A program made the position numbers and the translations under genes. A stretch of 21,060 nt of DNA from a virus: IMG/VR virus record IMGVR_UViG_3300007072_000334, positions 1-21,060 of that record; one strand, given 5' to 3'. Position 1 is the first letter of the stretch. Every line of letters starts with the position of its first letter. A model generated the notes under the pieces. It searched no databases. It saw only the letters and a list, made by a program, of their open reading frames with translations, and was not told the DNA's origin. Positions 1 through 18,578 of the stretch are shown here, piece after piece.

Positions 1-2139
1 GTGAGCGCTGCCACGCCAAGGGAGATACGCCAGCCCTTCCGGCCCCGCGCCAGGATGCTCCAGCTGCTGGGCGACGAACTGATCGGGAGTGCACGTCTCG
101 CCGTCTTCGAACTGGTCAAGAACGCTTACGATGCGGATGCGAACGAGGTCGTCGTTCGCCTGGATATTGCCAGAGGGCGAGAGCCTATGATTACCGTGAC
201 CGACGATGGCGAAGGCATGACGCTGGAGGTGCTTCGGTCGGTATGGCTCGTGCCCGGCGACGACTATCGACAGAAGCAGCGGCAGTCGCATCAAAGAACA
301 ACTAGACATCACCGTCTCCCTCTCGGGGAGAAGGGACTCGGTCGCTTTGCTGTTCACAAGCTCGGAAACCGCATCAGCTTGGTGACGCGGGCTCGGAACT
401 CCGATGAGTGCGTGGTGGAAATAGACTGGAACGAACTGATCGCCCAGCCCTATCTGGATGAGGCACCGGTCAGGATAAGTGTCCGCCGCCCGGAGGTATT
501 CACGGGCAGGAGGACCGGAACGCGAATTCAGATCCAGCAATTGCGCACCACCGACTGGTCGCGTGGAGAGGTTCGTCGCCTTCACAATCAGATCACATCC
601 ATCTGCTCGCCGTTTGAGGAGCCGAGCGGATTTCGTGCTGTTTTGGAGGTTCCAGGCCGCGAAAGCTGGATCGCTGATCTGCCGGACGTCACAGAGATTC
701 TGAATAGGGCGATCTGGAAGTTCTCGTTTCGTCTGGACGGTGGGAAGTTCGATTGGACCTATGAATTCCGCAAAGTCCCCGGACTCAAACTGGACCGCAG
801 GGTTGTCGAAAAGTCAGGAGACAGGCTTAAGCTGCCCCCGCAGTCTGGCGATGATCGGATGGAAAAGAAGGTCGTCGCCGACCAGTCAACTACGGAAGGC
901 ATAGGCCCGGTTAGAGGTGAGTTCTACGTCTATGACCGGGACCGCGAGGTCCTCCGGCGCCTAGCCAATGTTCAATTGTTGACCAGCTATCTCGATGACG
1001 CGGGAGGTGTCCGTGTCTACCGGGACGGCATCCGGGTATATAACTACGGCGAGCCCGGTGACGATTGGCTCGGCCTCGACCTGCGTCGTGTGAACATCCC
1101 TACGCGTCGCATCAGCCGCAACATCATTCTGGGTGCGGTTCACGTCTCGCTGGAGACGTCGACAGGTCTCATCGAGAAGACCAATCGAGAGGGCTTCGTT
1201 GAGAACGATGCGTGTGCCAGACTGCGCCGCGTCGTCCTCGGAGCTCTCGCCGCTCTTGAAGAGGAGCGGCAGTTCGACAAGGACCGGATCAGGAAGCTGA
1301 CCGACAAGCCGGACGATCCAACGACCGCCAAGATCGAAAAGCCTATCGAGGAGCTGAGGCACGCGCTCGACAGACGGGGGGTGAGAGACGTGTTCGAGCC
1401 CTACGTGGCAAAGATCGAGCACGACTACCGGAACATGCAGGAAACGCTGCTGTCGGCAGGCATGTCGGGGTTGAACCTAGCGGTCGTATTTCACGAGGTG
1501 GAGCGAGGAGTTCGGGCGCTTCATCAGGTCATCGTGGAAGGTGCGAATCCCGAGGACGCGGCCCGTCAGGCACGGGACCTGATGCATCTTCTCGACGGCT
1601 TCGCGACACTGCTCCGACGTGACAGCAAGAAGCAGCACAGCGCCAGAAAGCTTATCGATGCGGCGCGACGGTTCAACGTTCTTCGGCTCCGCCATCATCG
1701 TGTCCGTCTCGTCTGCCCATTGCTCGACATTGACGACGACGGATTCCAATCCAGGTTCGCGTTCGGACTGGTACTAGGAGCGCTCAACAATCTCATCGAC
1801 AATGCGCTGTATTGGCTCAGGGTCAGATGGCCGGAGGTGCCGCCCGAGAACGAACCGCCCGAGCGGAAGCTCTACATCGGGGTGTCGGACGAGTTCGAAG
1901 CAGGTCCTGCCATCGTCGTCGCAGATAACGGAGCGGGATTTCAAGGAGACGATCCGGAACATCTGGTGCGGCCGTTCTTCACGCGAAAGCCGGATGGCAT
2001 GGGTCTCGGGCTGTATTACGCCAACTTGGCGATGGAGCTGAACGGCGGACAGCTGGCCTTCCCGCAGCCCGCCGAAATCGAGATTCCCAATGGGTTCGAC
2101 GGAGCGGTCATCGCTATGATCTTCAAGGGCGCAAAATGA
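1..2139 (+). CDS. Dual-GHKL ATPase (Hsp90/MutL-like plus histidine-kinase-like), putative sensor of a defence cassette
   Basis: A 712-residue ATP-binding protein with two GHKL modules. The N-terminal one (about residues 15-200) has an N box with E37, N41 and D44, a G1 box DDGEGM at 68-73 and a G2 box GEKGLGR at 109-115, as in Hsp90/MutL/MORC-type ATPases. Residues about 230-400 look like the transducer domain usual after such a module, and about 425-490 is charged and helical. A second, histidine-kinase-type ATPase closes the protein: N box N597/N601, G1 box DNGAG at 642-646, G2 box GMGLGL at 666-671. Just before it, VFHEVERG (H498) resembles the phospho-accepting H-box of histidine kinases. 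No membrane segment or signal peptide is visible, so it is probably cytosolic. The GTG at position 1 is taken as start because the N-terminus matches the expected family start, but it sits on the window edge and upstream sequence is unseen. The stop overlaps the next gene by 4 bases. Kinase activity is inference. Confidence 0.85.
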   Translation: MSAATPREIRQPFRPRARMLQLLGDELIGSARLAVFELVKNAYDADANEVVVRLDIARGREPMITVTDDGEGMTLEVLRSVWLVPGDDYRQKQRQSHQRTTRHHRLPLGEKGLGRFAVHKLGNRISLVTRARNSDECVVEIDWNELIAQPYLDEAPVRISVRRPEVFTGRRTGTRIQIQQLRTTDWSRGEVRRLHNQITSICSPFEEPSGFRAVLEVPGRESWIADLPDVTEILNRAIWKFSFRLDGGKFDWTYEFRKVPGLKLDRRVVEKSGDRLKLPPQSGDDRMEKKVVADQSTTEGIGPVRGEFYVYDRDREVLRRLANVQLLTSYLDDAGGVRVYRDGIRVYNYGEPGDDWLGLDLRRVNIPTRRISRNIILGAVHVSLETSTGLIEKTNREGFVENDACARLRRVVLGALAALEEERQFDKDRIRKLTDKPDDPTTAKIEKPIEELRHALDRRGVRDVFEPYVAKIEHDYRNMQETLLSAGMSGLNLAVVFHEVERGVRALHQVIVEGANPEDAARQARDLMHLLDGFATLLRRDSKKQHSARKLIDAARRFNVLRLRHHRVRLVCPLLDIDDDGFQSRFAFGLVLGALNNLIDNALYWLRVRWPEVPPENEPPERKLYIGVSDEFEAGPAIVVADNGAGFQGDDPEHLVRPFFTRKPDGMGLGLYYANLAMELNGGQLAFPQPAEIEIPNGFDGAVIAMIFKGAK

Positions 2140-3500
2140 TGCTGCCGTCTCCACGAATCATCGCGATAGACGATGAGCCCAAGCATCTCGATGGACTGGC
2201 GAAAAGCCTGAATCAATACGGCGCGGCGTGTCTGCAGATTCATTTTACCGGAGACATCACAGCCATCAAGGCGTGCCCGCATGTGCGAGTGATCTTTGCC
2301 GATCTCCACTTGCAGGAAAGCGGAGCAGCAAGCGATCACGCCCAGCATTTCGGGTTGATCGGGAGCCTGATCGAGGGAACGATCACGCCCTCCGGTCCAT
2401 ATGTGCTGATCCTCTGGACGAAGTATCCTGACCAGGCAAATGCTCTCCAGCAGTTCCTCGAACAGCGCCTCGAAGGTGTGTCGAAGCCTCTCTCTGTCGT
2501 AGCAATCGACAAGATGACCCATCTCTCTCCGGATGGGGACGTCAAGAGCATTGAGGACCTTGTGGCCGCGATCGTCTCAATCATCAGCCGGCAGCCACAA
2601 ATCGCAGCCGTACTCAACTGGGAAGAACGTGTCCTGGGCGCGGCCGCTGACACGGTCTCATCCCTTGTCAAACTCGCAGAATCAGTAGCGGCGCCAGCGG
2701 GTTGCGCGACGGAGCTCGGGCGTCTGCTTGCAAGATTGGCTGTGGAAGGAGTCGGCCAGGAGCATGTGGAACGCGACCGATTTCATGCCGTGAACGAGGC
2801 ATTGCTGCCGATCCTGGCCGATCGTATCGCTGCGCTCAGATCTCGTGATGGCGACGTCGAGACCTGGAAGAACGCATTTTCCAATGAGGATGTGCATGGA
2901 GCCCTTTCGCTAGACGAAGCGTCGAAGCTGAACCGGCTTCTTCATGTCGCGCCGGCGACCGATGCGAATACGGGAGCGGAGCGCGGGGCGGTCATCCCCC
3001 TGCCGGATGCAATGTCAGGTGAAAGGTTTGAGGAGACCTTCAGTCTCTCACCGCAAACGGCCGTCGAGACGCAGTTCTTTGGAAGCGGGTATGTCGCGGG
3101 CGACGCGCAGTTTCGGTGGGTACTGCTCCAGTCGCAGGCCGCGTGCGACTATGCTCAGAGACAACCCGGACCTCTACCGTTTTACCTCGGGCTGGACATG
3201 GAAGTCTCGAAGGCAAAGAAGGGCACCCCGCCAGCGGCGCTGTGGACCAGTCCGCCCTTTGAACTCGAGGGAAAGGTACGATTGTTGCGGGTCAACGCCA
3301 GATTCCAGGTATCACTCCCTCTGAACAGCGCCGAAGCCGTCAAGCCGATCTATCGCCTTCGCGACCAGCTGCTCGCCGACCTGATCAACCATGTCCATAC
3401 CTACAGCGCTCGTCCTGGGATGATCTCCTTTCGCGAGCGGAAGGCAAAACAGCAGGCCGCAGTGGTGCAACCCAAGCCGAACGGTGCGGCCGGACCGTGA
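2136..3500 (+). CDS. Response-regulator receiver protein with large unrecognised C-terminal region
   Basis: 454 residues. The first ~130 form a CheY-like receiver with all key residues: acidic pair D12/D13 (IDDEP), phospho-acceptor D56 (FADLHL), T95 (LWTKYP) and K126 (IDKM). The remaining ~320 residues are mixed and largely helical. They show no helix-turn-helix, GGDEF, HD or nuclease motif that I recognise, so this is not an obvious transcription factor. The start codon lies in the ATGA overlap with the ATPase gene; a second ATG follows immediately, and AAGGG sits about 8 bases upstream. Translational coupling implies that the two proteins act together, with the ATPase's kinase-like C-terminus phosphorylating D56 or otherwise controlling this protein (inference). 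The C-terminal region is the likely output or effector module. The gene ends only 10 bp from the convergent methyltransferase gene. Confidence 0.82.
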   Translation: MMLPSPRIIAIDDEPKHLDGLAKSLNQYGAACLQIHFTGDITAIKACPHVRVIFADLHLQESGAASDHAQHFGLIGSLIEGTITPSGPYVLILWTKYPDQANALQQFLEQRLEGVSKPLSVVAIDKMTHLSPDGDVKSIEDLVAAIVSIISRQPQIAAVLNWEERVLGAAADTVSSLVKLAESVAAPAGCATELGRLLARLAVEGVGQEHVERDRFHAVNEALLPILADRIAALRSRDGDVETWKNAFSNEDVHGALSLDEASKLNRLLHVAPATDANTGAERGAVIPLPDAMSGERFEETFSLSPQTAVETQFFGSGYVAGDAQFRWVLLQSQAACDYAQRQPGPLPFYLGLDMEVSKAKKGTPPAALWTSPPFELEGKVRLLRVNARFQVSLPLNSAEAVKPIYRLRDQLLADLINHVHTYSARPGMISFRERKAKQQAAVVQPKPNGAAGP

Positions 3501-3510
3501 CATTGGCGAG

Positions 3511-4464
3511 CTACTGGCCGCATGCCAGTGCTCTTACTACCGCGTCCATCACGGGTGGACAGACGCCATTTCCGAGCAATCGAATGCGTTCACGACGAGT
3601 ACCCACAGGAAGGCTGAAATCCTCGTCGAACCCCATTGCCCGCTTCAGCTCGGGAACCTGCAACATGCGAATTCTCGGGGCATTCCCGTCGTGCTCCACA
3701 AGGGCGAAGCGGTCTATGGTCGTGATTGTGCGCAGGGGGCGACTGAGAGGCTGCCAACCACCGCTGCCGTCGCTCCCATAATATACAAGCAGGAAGCTGG
3801 CCTCTTCCCCAAGCGCCTGAAAGCCACGTCTGGCCCGCTCAAGAGTGGCATCCGCGCGTCTGCGATCGAAGAGCGGAGAGGTCGTCCAGGTTCCCGCAGG
3901 GTCGAGTATGGCCTTCGCGGACTTGCGCCGGCCTGGGCGCTTGCTCACAGCCCGGGGCGGCTTCTCCTTGCGATCTCCTAGCAGGAAGAGACGTCGTCGT
4001 GTCTGTGCGACGCCGAAATCCGATGCGTCGAGAACATGCTCTTCAAGGTGATAGCCGAGCTCTCGCAGGTCGCGCTTCAGCTCGCCGTAGCGGGACCAGG
4101 GCCGCATATGGATCACGTTCTCAAGCACAAGCCACCTCGGCCTGAGCACACGAGCGTACTCGACGACCAGCATGGCGGTCGCTCGGCTGGCCTCGTCCCG
4201 CGGTGCCGCGCCCTTCGCACAGGTATGGCTCGTGCATTCCGGCGATGCGAGCAGGAGGTCGATCTCGCCGATCTGCTTCTTTAGAGTACAGAGACTGACG
4301 TGCTCAAGACGGCTGGTTATGGCCTGCGCACGGGGGAAGTTTGCGGCGAACGTCTCGGTTGCTATGGCGCACATGTCAATGCCGGCGACAACCTCCACGC
4401 CGGCTGCCCGCGCTCCGGCGCTGCTGCCGCCGGCGCCGCAGAACATGTCAAGCACCCGGATCAC
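3511..4464 (-). CDS. DNA (cytosine-5-)-methyltransferase
   Basis: A 317-residue C5-cytosine methyltransferase that transfers a methyl group from S-adenosylmethionine to cytosine in a specific DNA site. Visible motifs: motif I FCGAGGSS (8-15), motif II acidic D30, motif IV PECTSH with catalytic C77, motif VI ENV (115-117), motif VIII QTRRR (154-158), and motif X GNGVCPPV (298-305). Motif IV is PEC rather than the usual PPC. The target-recognition region between motifs VIII and IX is short (about 170-240). The start is a GTG at 4464, chosen because no ATG, GTG or TTG occurs in frame between it and the Vsr stop codon; the ribosome site is weak (GGGGA). It lies 84 bases downstream of Vsr on the same strand. 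The pairing fits either repair of deaminated 5-methylcytosine or a restriction-modification role. Target sequence unknown. Confidence 0.93.
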   Translation of the reverse strand: MIRVLDMFCGAGGSSAGARAAGVEVVAGIDMCAIATETFAANFPRAQAITSRLEHVSLCTLKKQIGEIDLLLASPECTSHTCAKGAAPRDEASRATAMLVVEYARVLRPRWLVLENVIHMRPWSRYGELKRDLRELGYHLEEHVLDASDFGVAQTRRRLFLLGDRKEKPPRAVSKRPGRRKSAKAILDPAGTWTTSPLFDRRRADATLERARRGFQALGEEASFLLVYYGSDGSGGWQPLSRPLRTITTIDRFALVEHDGNAPRIRMLQVPELKRAMGFDEDFSLPVGTRRERIRLLGNGVCPPVMDAVVRALACGQ

Positions 4465-4548
4465 TTGTCGGAATCCCCAAAGATACCAGAGCCAACCCGG
4501 CCAGGTTACCAGGTTTCGCGGATTTGGCCAGGTCCGATTTTCAGAATC

Positions 4549-5004
4549 TCATGATTTCATGAGGTCATGGATTCGAGGGAACCACCTGCCGGAGCCCTCT
4601 CCCAGGTGTTTGATGAGGCGCCCTCGCACAGCCTCCTCGTCCTGGGTTTCGCACTCCCAGATGACCAGAACCCGCCAGCCGAGCTTCCGAAGCGCCTCCT
4701 CACTGCGGCGATCGCGGGCAATGTTCCTTTCGAATTTTGCGGTCCAGAACGTCGTTCTAGTCTTGGGAATGTAGGCGTATTGGCATCCCCCATGCCGATG
4801 CCAGAAGCATCCGTGGACGAATATCGCCAGACGGTGCCGCGGAAAGACCAGATCAGGACGACCGGGGAGATTCCTGCGGTGCAGGCGGAAACGGAAGCCG
4901 AGCCGGTGAGCAATCCGACGGACAATAAGCTCGGGAGTGGTATCACGTCCCCTGATTTTGGACATGATTTCACTTCGCCGCTTCTTGTCCACAATGTCCG
5001 CCAT
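4549..5004 (-). CDS. vsr: Very short patch repair (Vsr) endonuclease
   Basis: 151 residues, the usual size of Vsr. The N-terminus carries the SKIRGRDTTPE signature, followed by GRPDLVF with the catalytic-type aspartate, then HGCFWHRHGGC (about 84-94), which holds the histidines and cysteine of the Vsr active and zinc site, and WECE near 116. In E. coli, Vsr nicks beside T:G mismatches that arise when 5-methylcytosine deaminates in Dcm sites. Here it precedes its own cytosine methyltransferase and is probably co-transcribed with it. In phage- and plasmid-borne cassettes Vsr-like nucleases may instead act as the cleavage arm of a restriction system; the sequence cannot separate the two roles. 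The 257-bp upstream gap probably holds the promoter, but I see no convincing -35/-10 pair. Confidence 0.94.
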   Translation of the reverse strand: MADIVDKKRRSEIMSKIRGRDTTPELIVRRIAHRLGFRFRLHRRNLPGRPDLVFPRHRLAIFVHGCFWHRHGGCQYAYIPKTRTTFWTAKFERNIARDRRSEEALRKLGWRVLVIWECETQDEEAVRGRLIKHLGEGSGRWFPRIHDLMKS

Positions 5005-14162: not shown

Positions 14163-16592
14163 TCAGAGATTGCGCCGCGCCCGATCGATGGCGCGGGCGG
14201 CGTCGGCCGCGATCTGGCCCTGGGCGTAGCGGAAGCCGCCCACGTCGGGCGTCGAGATGTTCATCACCACGGTGACGGGCGGCCGCCGGTCCTCGCTGCC
14301 GCGAAGCCCCGCGCCGAGGGTTGCCATCTGCTCACGGGTCAGCACTGCCTCTCCACGGCGCAGAATGGCCGGCATTTCGTCTGGGGCGATGCCGGCAAAG
14401 CCACCGGTGTGATATCGGGGCGCTGTCAGAAACAGGGCCGCATCGACGCCGCGCGCGGGTGCTGTGCTGCGCCCGACAAGGCCGCCCTCATGAAAGATAC
14501 CCGCGAAGATCTGCCCGAGGCTGCCGAACGGATCACCACTCCCGTTGCCGCCGCCGAGCCAGTTTGCGAGCGGCGCCAGGATCGCCTGGCGCACGGCGAT
14601 GCGGGTGATGTCCGCCATGATGCTGTCGGCGAAGGACGCGAACTCGAACTTGCCCGTGGTCACAAAGGAGACGAGCGCATCCTCCATGGTCTTGAAGGCG
14701 AGCGTGGTCGCCTGCTCGGCCGCCTTGGCGGAATCGCTCGCCGCGTCGGCATAGTCCCGGAGCGCCCGGGTGACGCCGTCCTGCCACTCCCGGCTCTGGC
14801 GGAGCAGCCGGTCCTGCGCCGCCGCCAAGTCCTCGTTCGCCTTGACGAGCGCGCGGCTGAACGTCTCCTGATCGATCGCGCCGGCGCTGAGCAGCGTGCT
14901 CAGGCGCTCGATGGTTGCGGCATACTCCTCGGTCGGGGTGCGCAGCTGCTCGACGAGGTGCCGCCCCTCTTCGCGCAGCCGCTCCTCCTCGCGCATCGTC
15001 TTGGCGAGCTCTTCGCGGGCTTGGCGTTCGTCGTAGAGGGCGCCGGCCAGCCGCTCGACTTCGGCGCGCTGCGCCGCCGTGGCGCCCTCCGAGAGGCGCG
15101 AGAGAGCCTGGTCGATGAAGGCCTGGCGCTCGTCGGCGAGGCCCGCGAGCTGCCGGCCGAGATCCTCGATCACGCGGGCATTGGCGGCGGCGACGCGGGT
15201 CGCGGCCTCCCGCGCCGGCCGCTCGATCGCCTCGATCCGGCGTCGCGCCAGCTCCTCGGCCCGGGCGATGGCCGAATCGACCTCCGCCGCGTTGCTGCCG
15301 TCCGGCGCCCGGAGCGCGTCGAGCCGCCGGCGCGTCTCGTCGAGCTCCCGGTTGACCCGCGCGATGCGCTCGGCGGGGTCGGTCGCGATCTGGTCGAGCG
15401 CGCGGTCGATCTCGCGGCGCTGCGTGCTCAGGAGCTCGGCCAGGCGCTCCGCTTCGGCGGCGCGGCGCCCGGCTTCCGCGCGGCGCTGCTCCTCGGCGAA
15501 GGCCTCGGCCTCGCTGCGCGCCTCAGCGATCAGGTCGTCGACCTGGCGCCTCAGATCCTCGACCAGGCGCTGGGTCACGGCGACGGCGCGCCGGTTGCCG
15601 CTCTCCCTGAGCCTCGCGAGCCGGTCCTCGGCCTCGATCAGCCGCCTGTTGGTCTCGACGATGCGGACCGAGATCGGGTCTTCCTCGAACAGCGAGGTGA
15701 TCCCTTCCACCGCCCGCGCCAGGGTGTCGAGCGCGCCTTCGGCGAGACCGGAGATCGCCGGCGTGCGGCCGATGGCCTTGAGGAGATTGCCCCAGGCATC
15801 GGACAGCCGGTTGGCGGCGCCGGTGAGGCCGCCGGCCTCGGCGGCGCTGGCGCCGCCCACCTGCTGTTCGAGCGCATCAAGGATAACCTTCTGCGCTTCC
15901 GCCGTCCGGCCGGTCTGGACCAGCGACTCGATCAGTTCGCGCTGCGAGGCGGTGAATGAGACGCCGACCCGGCGCAGCGCCGAGATGCCCTGGATCGGCT
16001 CTTCGAGCGCCTTGCCGAGCTGCGTGGCGCTGGAGCGCAGGTCCTGCCCGAACACCGTTGACAGGTCCTGCGCCAGGCGGATGGCGCGGGTGAAGGTCTC
16101 GCCGGAAACCGAGCGGAACGTCGCGAGGACCGAAGCCGCGTCCTGGACGGACTCGGCCGAGGCGAGCGTCGAGCGCTCCATCTCCTCGGCGAAGCCGGCG
16201 ATCTCACGCGCCGTCAGACCCGAGGCGTGGCCCGTCGCGCGCAGCACCGCCTCGAGGCGGCGGTAGGACCGGTCGGCCTCGGCCGCCTCCTGGACCCCGC
16301 GGACGAGGATGAGACCGAGGCCCGCGATCGCCGCGCCGGCCGCAAGGCCGGCCGGGCCGAGCCGCGAGAGCGCCCCGCCCAGAGGGCCGAGACGGCTGGT
16401 CAGCCCTTCGAGCGAGCCGCGGACCTGCCCGGCGGCGCCGTCGATCGCCTGGAGCGCGCGCGAGGCAGGGCGCGACGCGTCCTCGATGCGCTTGAGCGAG
16501 CGCTGGCCGCTCTCGCCCACATCGCGCAGCTCCGCCTTCACCTTGCCGCCGTCGATGACGGCGAGGCGCACAGCGAGATTGCGGGTGGTCAT
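14163..16592 (-). CDS. Tail length tape measure protein
   Basis: 809 residues. The N-terminal region is helical, with a hydrophobic glycine/alanine segment at about 79-100 (GPAGLAAGAAIAGLGLILV), then the phage tape measure core (residues 105-280: ATQLGKALEEPIQGISALRR, TAEAQKVILDALEQQ, NRLSDAWGNLLKAIG). A long charged coiled coil covers about 310-620, and the C-terminus carries a glycine-rich segment with FHEGGLVG. It is extended inside the tube, sets tail length and is ejected with DNA. At about 0.15 nm per residue this would give a tail near 120 nm, consistent with a siphovirus (inference). Its ATG overlaps the chaperone extension stop by 4 bases. Confidence 0.93.
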   Translation of the reverse strand: MTTRNLAVRLAVIDGGKVKAELRDVGESGQRSLKRIEDASRPASRALQAIDGAAGQVRGSLEGLTSRLGPLGGALSRLGPAGLAAGAAIAGLGLILVRGVQEAAEADRSYRRLEAVLRATGHASGLTAREIAGFAEEMERSTLASAESVQDAASVLATFRSVSGETFTRAIRLAQDLSTVFGQDLRSSATQLGKALEEPIQGISALRRVGVSFTASQRELIESLVQTGRTAEAQKVILDALEQQVGGASAAEAGGLTGAANRLSDAWGNLLKAIGRTPAISGLAEGALDTLARAVEGITSLFEEDPISVRIVETNRRLIEAEDRLARLRESGNRRAVAVTQRLVEDLRRQVDDLIAEARSEAEAFAEEQRRAEAGRRAAEAERLAELLSTQRREIDRALDQIATDPAERIARVNRELDETRRRLDALRAPDGSNAAEVDSAIARAEELARRRIEAIERPAREAATRVAAANARVIEDLGRQLAGLADERQAFIDQALSRLSEGATAAQRAEVERLAGALYDERQAREELAKTMREEERLREEGRHLVEQLRTPTEEYAATIERLSTLLSAGAIDQETFSRALVKANEDLAAAQDRLLRQSREWQDGVTRALRDYADAASDSAKAAEQATTLAFKTMEDALVSFVTTGKFEFASFADSIMADITRIAVRQAILAPLANWLGGGNGSGDPFGSLGQIFAGIFHEGGLVGRSTAPARGVDAALFLTAPRYHTGGFAGIAPDEMPAILRRGEAVLTREQMATLGAGLRGSEDRRPPVTVVMNISTPDVGGFRYAQGQIAADAARAIDRARRNL

Positions 16593-16948
16593 GGAAGACC
16601 GTCCGAGCGGATCCGTTCGTTCAGGGCCTTGACCAGCCCGGCCTCGCCGGCGGGCAGGAGCTCGGCCAGCGCATGGGCGTCATAGCCGAGCGCTTCGCCG
16701 AGCCGCAGCGCGGCCGCGAGATCGATGCCGACCACGGCGCCGGGCGCGATCCGCAGCTGGCTACTTGCTCGTGTGAGCACGTCCCAAGCCTGCCAGCCGG
16801 TATCGGTCAGCGGCTCATTGTCGATGTAGGGGCAGAGCACGCCGTCGACGCCGGACTCGCCCCGCGCACAGGGACGGCCGTCACGCCGGCACCCGTCGCA
16901 ATAGGCCGGCCCGCCGCCGAAGTGCCACTTGGCGCGGGCCGTCAGGCG
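16589..16948 (-). CDS. Frameshift-translated T-domain of tail assembly chaperone (lambda gpT-like)
   Basis: This 119-codon frame is open in the -1 register relative to the chaperone gene and is best read as its translational extension, giving a 236-residue fusion (117 + 119). No ATG, GTG or TTG occurs in this frame between about 17030 and the GTG at 16840, yet the codons upstream of 16840 look coding: KWHFGGGPAYCDGC, then RPC and VLC, giving four cysteines in a C-x2-C-x6-C-x10-C pattern that could bind zinc. An independent 83-residue product from the GTG is the alternative. The stop overlaps the tape measure ATG, the position of T in lambda. Confidence 0.72.
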   Translation of the reverse strand, partial: RLTARAKWHFGGGPAYCDGCRRDGRPCARGESGVDGVLCPYIDNEPLTDTGWQAWDVLTRASSQLRIAPGAVVGIDLAAALRLGEALGYDAHALAELLPAGEAGLVKALNERIRSDGLP

Positions 16949-16954
16949 TTTTTT
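16908..16954 (-). promoter_or_regulatory. Programmed -1 ribosomal frameshift signal (A-AAA-AAC slippery site plus stem-loop)
   Basis: On the minus strand the heptamer A-AAA-AAC (16954-16948) lies in the chaperone frame exactly as X-XXY-YYZ requires, three codons before its TGA. Seven bases later GGCCCGC (16940-16934) pairs with GCGGGCC (16914-16908); GCC (16933-16931) and GGC (16918-16916) extend the stem after a one-base bulge, with an inner AAGT/ACTT pairing in the loop. Slip site, spacing, stem and the open -1 frame all fit. Confidence 0.85.
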
Positions 16955-17298
16955 TCGGCGTCCAGCAGCAGCGCCGGACCGAGATATTGCCGCTCGAAGG
17001 ACTCTGCGATCGGCCAGAGGTCCATCAGCGCCTCGACGCCTTCGGGCGTCAGCCTGGCCGGCTCACCCTTTTCATCGCCGACGCCCTCCCAGCCGTCGAT
17101 CGCCGACTTGGCCAGCGCCTTGACGAGCGTGGCGGTCCGCTCACCGACCGCGCTGTCGTCCGTAATCGGATCAATGCCGCGCGCCACCGCCGCCCGCGCG
17201 GCCATGACGAGCGCCGTGGTGCAAGGGCGGACATGGACGCGCACGCCATGGCCGAGATCGAGCCAGTAGGGTTCGCGCTTCAAGTCGAGACGGATCAT
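16942..17298 (-). CDS. Tail assembly chaperone (lambda gpG-like)
   Basis: 118 residues, acidic to neutral and helical after a short beta N-terminus (IRLDLKREPYWLDLGHGVRV). No enzymatic motif. It lies between the tail tube and tape measure genes, where siphoviruses place their tail chaperone. It ends DAEKNA, and the AAA-AAC codons for K116-N117 form the slippery site that would produce the longer G-T fusion. The chaperone coats the tape measure during tail assembly. The ribosome site GAGG (17305-17308) overlaps the tail tube gene's TGA stop, suggesting coupled translation. The identification is from position and the frameshift rather than from sequence similarity. Confidence 0.82.
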   Translation of the reverse strand: MIRLDLKREPYWLDLGHGVRVHVRPCTTALVMAARAAVARGIDPITDDSAVGERTATLVKALAKSAIDGWEGVGDEKGEPARLTPEGVEALMDLWPIAESFERQYLGPALLLDAEKNA

Positions 17299-17306
17299 GG
17301 AAAACC

Positions 17307-18578
17307 TCAGCTGTAGCTGGTGACGTCGTTGAGGAGGTGCGCGCGCAGCATGGTGCCTTCCGCGTCATCGAAGGCGGCGCGCCAGTCGAAGCTCGCCTCG
17401 ACCCCGCCGGGGCCGGAGACGGCGTATTTGGGCTTGGGGAGGAAGACGCGCGGCAGCTCGAAGCGCAGCGCATACCCCTCGGGGAAGGTGAAGCCGTATT
17501 CGAGGGCGACCGGATCGCCGTCGGTGGCCTCGGCCACCAGCGTCGCGCCGTCGAAGCGCACCGACATCGCACCCTGCGCCGAGGCGAAGGTCGGATCGGC
17601 CGCCTCGATCTTGCCGTCCTCACGGATCACCCGTACCCGCTCCAGGTTGTTCGAGAAGGTGAGGCTGCCGCCGGTGACGCCAGCGAGGGCCGAGCCGCCG
17701 CGCCGGATGAAGCCGCGCCCCTGGCTGAAGCGCCGGAGCGTGTAGCTGTCCGGCGCCGCATCGACGGTGGCGGCATATCGCTCTTCGCCCCGGGCCACAA
17801 GCTGGAGGCGGGCGTTGGCGGGGCCCTCCTGGCCCATCTCGAAGGCGAGGCTCTCCATCACCGTGCCGAGGTGGCGGAAGAAGACCGGCGTCACCAGCTT
17901 CGGGTGGCCGATCTCGATCGTGTAGCTCGGGATGTCATCGGCGCCGCTCTCCCAGACATGCGAGTAGCCGCCGCCGGTGAGAGTGGGCCCCGAGACGCTC
18001 GCGACCGAGGCGGCGATGGTGAAGCCGTTCCCCGTGGGCCCGGCCATGTCGAGCTCGATCGCCAGCGTCTGCGTACCGGTCGGTCGCGAATAGGTGCACT
18101 TCGACACCTCCGCATCGGCCGAGGCGTTGAGGTCGGCGACCAGCTGGTCGACGGTCTGCGTCACCGTCCCCTGGATCTCCGTCTCATTGCCCGAGGCCGG
18201 GCCCGAGACGAAGGTCCACACCGCGCCGTTCAGCGTGATCGTGTCGCCGGGTGACGGGTTGGCCGCGAAGGCGATCGAGCCGCTCGCCTTGACCGCGGTC
18301 GTCACCGGATCGCCGAAGAGGCCGGTGAGCCAGAAACCCGTCCCCCGGAGATCGAGCGGGATCTCGATCTGGCCCTCGTCGGTGATGAGCCCCCGATAAG
18401 GGTCCTGAGCATTGCGCCCGCGCCCCAGCAGCGGATCGTCGCCGAGCGGCTGGGCCGAAGAGAGGTCGGTCGATTTGAAGTCGAGGCTTCGATAGCCGGA
18501 CAGCGGCGCCACGCCATAGCTGGCCTCGCGGGCAGCCTTGAGCGTGGCGTCCGCGCCGTAGGCGCGCACCTTGGGCAT
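17307..18578 (-). CDS. Phage tail tube protein with inserted surface domain
   Basis: 423 residues. Residues 1-95 (YGADATLKAAREASYG, FKSTDLS, TDEGQIEIPLDLRGTGFWL) and 210-423 (SYTIEIGHPKL, SLTFSNNLERVR) match phage tail tube proteins that polymerise as stacked hexamers. Residues about 98-204 (SPGDTITLNGAVWTFV, DLNASADAEVSKCTYS, AGPTGNGFTIAASVASVSG) form a separate beta-rich module resembling decoration domains of other phage proteins. It would project from the tube. A strong ribosome site AAGGAG lies at 18585-18590, six bases from the ATG, in keeping with high expression of a structural protein. Confidence 0.88.
   Translation of the reverse strand: MPKVRAYGADATLKAAREASYGVAPLSGYRSLDFKSTDLSSAQPLGDDPLLGRGRNAQDPYRGLITDEGQIEIPLDLRGTGFWLTGLFGDPVTTAVKASGSIAFAANPSPGDTITLNGAVWTFVSGPASGNETEIQGTVTQTVDQLVADLNASADAEVSKCTYSRPTGTQTLAIELDMAGPTGNGFTIAASVASVSGPTLTGGGYSHVWESGADDIPSYTIEIGHPKLVTPVFFRHLGTVMESLAFEMGQEGPANARLQLVARGEERYAATVDAAPDSYTLRRFSQGRGFIRRGGSALAGVTGGSLTFSNNLERVRVIREDGKIEAADPTFASAQGAMSVRFDGATLVAEATDGDPVALEYGFTFPEGYALRFELPRVFLPKPKYAVSGPGGVEASFDWRAAFDDAEGTMLRAHLLNDVTSYS

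Follow-up and report, generated by a model that had tools for sequence, protein, structure and literature searches.

Comparative evidence for a lambda G/GT-type -1 frameshift in a phage tail chaperone locus with a conserved four-cysteine module

The window analyzed here, that is, the whole stretch of 21,060 nt from IMGVR_UViG_3300007072_000334 (positions 1 to 21,060), carries two overlapping ORFs, A and B, between the genes for a tail tube protein and a tape measure protein. The features of this locus are as follows.

17307..18578, minus strand: tail tube protein (Phage_tube_2, E 3.5e-47)
16942..17298, minus strand: ORF A, a G-type tail assembly chaperone of 118 aa when unshifted (phrog_313, E 3.4e-13)
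16948..16954, minus strand: slippery heptamer A_AAA_AAC, at the homologous position in 62 of 62 sequences
16942..16944, minus strand: zero-frame TGA stop of ORF A
16907..16941, minus strand: downstream hairpin, its stem beginning 6-7 nt past the heptamer
16592..16948, minus strand: segment B, a putative T domain of 119 aa in the -1 frame, joined to A by the shift (DUF7697, 69.5 bits; AlphaFold pLDDT 91)
16832..16900, minus strand: four-cysteine module (Cys 17, 20, 27 and 39 of B), invariant in 24 representatives
16838..16840, minus strand: GTG, the earliest standard start codon in the B frame, unconserved (missing at that place in L007)
16591-16589, minus strand: TGA stop of B
14163..16592, minus strand: tape measure protein, its start overlapping the stop of B (Tape_meas_lam_C, E 5.3e-29)

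Further neighbors identified by family matches include DUF2460 distal tail, hub, NlpC/P60 and Rcc01698-like tip proteins, and a major capsid protein E lies upstream. Relatives of ORF A are annotated as tail assembly chaperones, while NCBIfam searched with A and B and Rfam searched with the window returned no match. The left end of the window encodes a protein with two HATPase domains (1-2139, plus strand), followed by an ORF without a family match (2136-3500, plus strand), a C5 cytosine methylase (3511-4464, minus strand) and a Vsr endonuclease (4549-5004, minus strand); positions 1-5004 form a modification or defence-like cluster adjoining the phage genes.

The 3' end of ORF A reads GAA AAA AAC GCC TGA, where the heptamer is phased as a -1 tandem slip requires, and AAAAAAC occurs only once in the window (chance expectation 0.11). 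The initial annotation had placed an in-frame heptamer near the stop of A and had described the -1 frame as open through that stop with no standard start before 16840. Both descriptions hold: the heptamer occupies 16954-16948 and is followed directly by GCC TGA, and the -1 frame runs open from 17062 down to its TGA at 16591-16589, with ATG, GTG and TTG absent before 16840. A shift at this site would yield a fusion of 117 + 119 = 236 aa. Translation from GTG 16840 had also been said to lose four cysteines; however, this codon encodes residue 37 of the -1 segment, and the resulting product (MLCPY...) would lose three cysteines and retain the fourth.

By protein similarity, 61 relatives were collected from annotated phages, viral contigs and bacterial genomes, and 24 representatives were picked at 90% identity. 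The lineage consists of phages and prophages, mostly of alphaproteobacteria, with a few cyanophages. The conservation of heptamer and cysteines that had been proposed as a check is evident among these sequences. With the window included, the heptamer stands at the same protein position in 62 of 62 (54 AAAAAAC, 6 GGGAAAC and 2 AAAAAAA), a YC-x2-C...C...C pattern follows soon after it in all 61 relatives, and the four cysteines are invariant in the 24 representatives. The distance from the start of the heptamer to the stop of A is 10 nt in most relatives and 73 to 124 nt in others, indicating that the heptamer, and not the stop, is fixed. The longer distance is found in nine relatives (L002, L003, L005, L006, L051, L052, L053, L061 and L062), in which the late zero-frame stop means that the DNA of the cysteine module also encodes a tail on the unshifted chaperone.

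An alternative is that no frameshift takes place and that B is an independent gene whose translation starts at GTG 16840. This GTG is indeed present, and in two cyanophage records B is entered as an ORF of its own with a start inside B. However, the conserved sequence of B starts right at the end of the heptamer, upstream of all starts, and the heptamer is retained throughout the relatives. An independent start in relatives had been named as an observation that would count against the frameshift, but in 23 of the 24 representatives the stretch from the heptamer to the first cysteine contains no ATG, GTG or TTG, and the GTG is missing from the close relative L007, leaving this alternative very improbable.

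Substitution patterns bear on the frame in use after the junction. Pairwise counts over the first 20 codons of B gave pN 0.21 and pS 0.61 in the -1 frame, and pN 0.34 and pS 0.24 for the same DNA in the zero frame; the -1 frame after the junction is under protein-level constraint, whereas the zero frame is not. The pair formed by the window and L007 shows little constraint in the first 36 residues of B, with a pN/pS of 0.83 that rests on few changes.

Part of the searches for relatives used peptide patterns that included AKWHFGGG, so the way in which the sequences were selected could itself account for the conservation of that segment. As a control for this bias, a search was run with the DUF7697 (PF24752) model, which matches B only downstream of the cysteines. 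All 20 loci with legible upstream sequence carry an in-phase AAAAAAC or GGGAAAC and four cysteines, with a different cysteine spacing in one (L082); four of these loci coincide with L059-L062, leaving 16 that are new. The exceptions in this search were as follows: L067 is a decayed copy, L080 lacks such a frame, L083 matches below the cut-off and in an unrelated frame, and L072 lies at a contig edge. In L067, a prophage copy (447-599), the first cysteine is gone and no open chaperone frame is present at the junction; this copy is apparently decaying.

Downstream of the slippery site, a stem of at least 7 pairs begins 6-7 nt past the heptamer and occurs in two registers, one in the group of the window and the other in a group with Rhodobacter and Methylocystis sequences. 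Its stability was compared with 500 synonymous recodings drawn from local codon use, a control that accounts for the coding constraint of WHFGGG. The hairpin is more stable than the recodings in 22 of the 24 representatives (mean z -2.9; window z -3.7), and no better than them in L053 and L062. In contrast, the 91-nt stretch containing the hairpin gave no signal against dinucleotide shuffles (z -0.06) because the DNA is GC-rich throughout, making synonymous recoding the better control. The strong GC stem-loop initially annotated seven bases on is thus confirmed in position (6-7 nt) and in strength relative to recodings, but is unremarkable relative to shuffles. The stem shows few paired changes, such as G-C to C-G in L006, and the energy test therefore outweighs covariation.

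The heptamer and hairpin also bear on two other explanations of the frame change. RNA polymerase slippage on the seven-A run, in place of ribosomal slippage, would fit the presence of such a run in the window and in most relatives. However, some relatives have GAGGGAAAC in place of the A run, keeping the ribosomal G_GGA_AAC phase without a long homopolymer, and the conserved hairpin at 6-7 nt fits ribosomal slipping; polymerase slippage is accordingly a highly implausible source. Errors of sequencing or assembly at the A run could also have split a single continuous gene, since homopolymers are prone to error. The same split recurs in 61 other, independently assembled records, among them isolated phages and GGGAAAC relatives, and this explanation was rejected as having next to no chance of being correct.

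Collectively, the gene order, the family matches, the slippery site in every relative, the missing start codons and the conserved -1 frame support the lambda G/GT-like frameshift originally proposed, and the locus very probably (about 95%) encodes a lambda G/GT-type chaperone pair made by a -1 frameshift. In the mechanism that we infer, most ribosomes would read A to its TGA and produce the short chaperone, whereas a minority would slip one base back at A_AAA_AAC, aided by the hairpin 6-7 nt downstream, and produce the 236-aa fusion, whose added domain B would be a T domain of the DUF7697/DUF1799 type. By analogy with lambda, the A part may act as a chaperone that coats the tape measure protein, and B may recruit the tail tube protein.

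The frameshift mechanism of lambda G/GT and the role of the T domain are established (Levin 1993; Xu, Hendrix and Duda 2004; reviewed in PMC5009743). Like lambda gpG/gpGT, the present locus lies between the tail tube and tape measure genes, has its -1 slip site near the end of the first ORF and would fuse a T domain to the product of that ORF. However, the slip site is GGGAAAG in lambda and A_AAA_AAC here, and lambda T has zero cysteines, whereas B combines a four-cysteine module with a DUF7697 core. The Rhodobacter capsulatus phages RcKai and RcKemmy and the RcC cluster (PMC8601537) encode homologous A and B segments with 39-41% identity and share the four cysteines, but their slip site is G_GGA_AAC and their A stop lies 97 nt past the slip site, compared with 10 nt here. 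In RcKai and RcKemmy, a joined CDS is annotated as a tail assembly chaperone, and its 722-nt span fits a -1 join. In the paper describing the R. capsulatus phages, the frameshift is regarded as the usual case, and RcZahn is named as the phage lacking clear evidence of it (PMC8601537). In Acinetobacter phage Loki (PMC5313236), AAAAAAC likewise lies beside the stop of a tail chaperone gene (gp12/gp13), and the predicted fold is among the weak matches of B; the likeness seen here is one of site and predicted fold. Synechococcus phage Sc-Yong805-1 (L004) and Nostoc phage Nsp-JY21 (L005) are annotated with two separate genes, the second having a late start about 40 codons past the slip site. In both, the A_AAA_AAA site and the presence of the cysteine module upstream of the annotated start suggest a missed frameshift.

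Segment B scores above the curated cut-off of DUF7697 (PF24752; 69.5 bits versus 27) and below that of DUF1799 (PF08809; 18.6 bits versus 26). By profile comparison, B is a distant relative of DUF1799: the final 70 columns of DUF7697 and DUF1799 align (hhalign, 95%), and DUF1799 loci have these last 70 columns and the same slippery heptamer at the junction in common with B. However, the DUF1799 loci are without the cysteines, save L110 and L114, which belong to the cysteine lineage. Although the window B is a member of DUF7697 and phrog_11212 by score, both models start at about residue 65-68 of B, and the cysteine module is thereby omitted from them; unrecognised frameshifts may be the cause of this omission.

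Structures were predicted with AlphaFold for the A and B halves separately, with three alignment rows from annotated phage records left out. B is predicted with confidence to be mostly helical (pLDDT 91), and A was modeled with a pLDDT of 82. Foldseek returned weak matches for B (best E 0.026), the best named viral ones being mostly tape measure or tail assembly chaperones. Among solved structures, neither half found a match: Foldseek and VIA-align against the PDB gave unconvincing results for B, and Foldseek gave nothing for A. A profile search of the PDB with B yielded chance-level matches to Cdc37 (E 0.5).

The cysteines of B (residues 17, 20, 27 and 39 of the -1 segment) are spaced C-x2-C-x6-C-x11-C. 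The four cysteines and first two spacings given in the initial annotation are correct, but the last spacing is x11 and not x10. The invariant residues in the 24 representatives are R1, W8, F10, G11, G13, Y16, C17, C20, C27, C39 and G51, and the shortest forms of the module read C-x2-C-x3-C-x2-C. The invariance of these four potential metal ligands, in paired spacing, makes a metal-binding T-domain module plausible. We infer from this pattern that the WHFGGG-YC-x2-C...C...C module of B is more likely than not to bind a structural zinc ion. Alternatively, the frameshift may be real and the cysteines may hold no metal, serving in disulfides or in core packing; PDB searches found no solved relative of B, which leaves room for this option. 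However, the four cysteines are invariant with C-x2-C pairs, contracting to C-x2-C-x3-C-x2-C in the shortest forms. In addition, this protein, as a tail assembly chaperone, acts in the reducing cytoplasm. A role without metal is possible, though less probable than zinc binding.

The cysteines are missing from lambda T and from the DUF1799 relatives, so the module looks like a lineage-specific addition, placed after the slip site and ahead of the shared T core. The frameshift mechanism is already known, and the cysteine module is a variant that we did not find described: literature searches on zinc or cysteine in tail assembly chaperones, and on DUF7697, yielded no description of it among the papers retrieved. 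A further reading, whose chances appear evenly balanced, is that the zinc T-domain module of this lineage exists only in the frameshift product, that recruitment of the tail tube would be metal-dependent, and that the module's position ahead of every start codon explains its absence from the family models.

These comparisons provide strong evidence that DUF7697 and DUF1799, families named as unknown, represent T domains of tail chaperones made by frameshifting, and that the DUF7697 and phrog_11212 models start past a conserved four-cysteine module. They also make it simple to ask whether a metal is required for the T domain to work in these phages. In addition, the T-type segment (16592-16948 in the window) is matched by phrog_680 in 17 of 24 relatives; the label of this family, tail length tape measure protein, is probably wrong.
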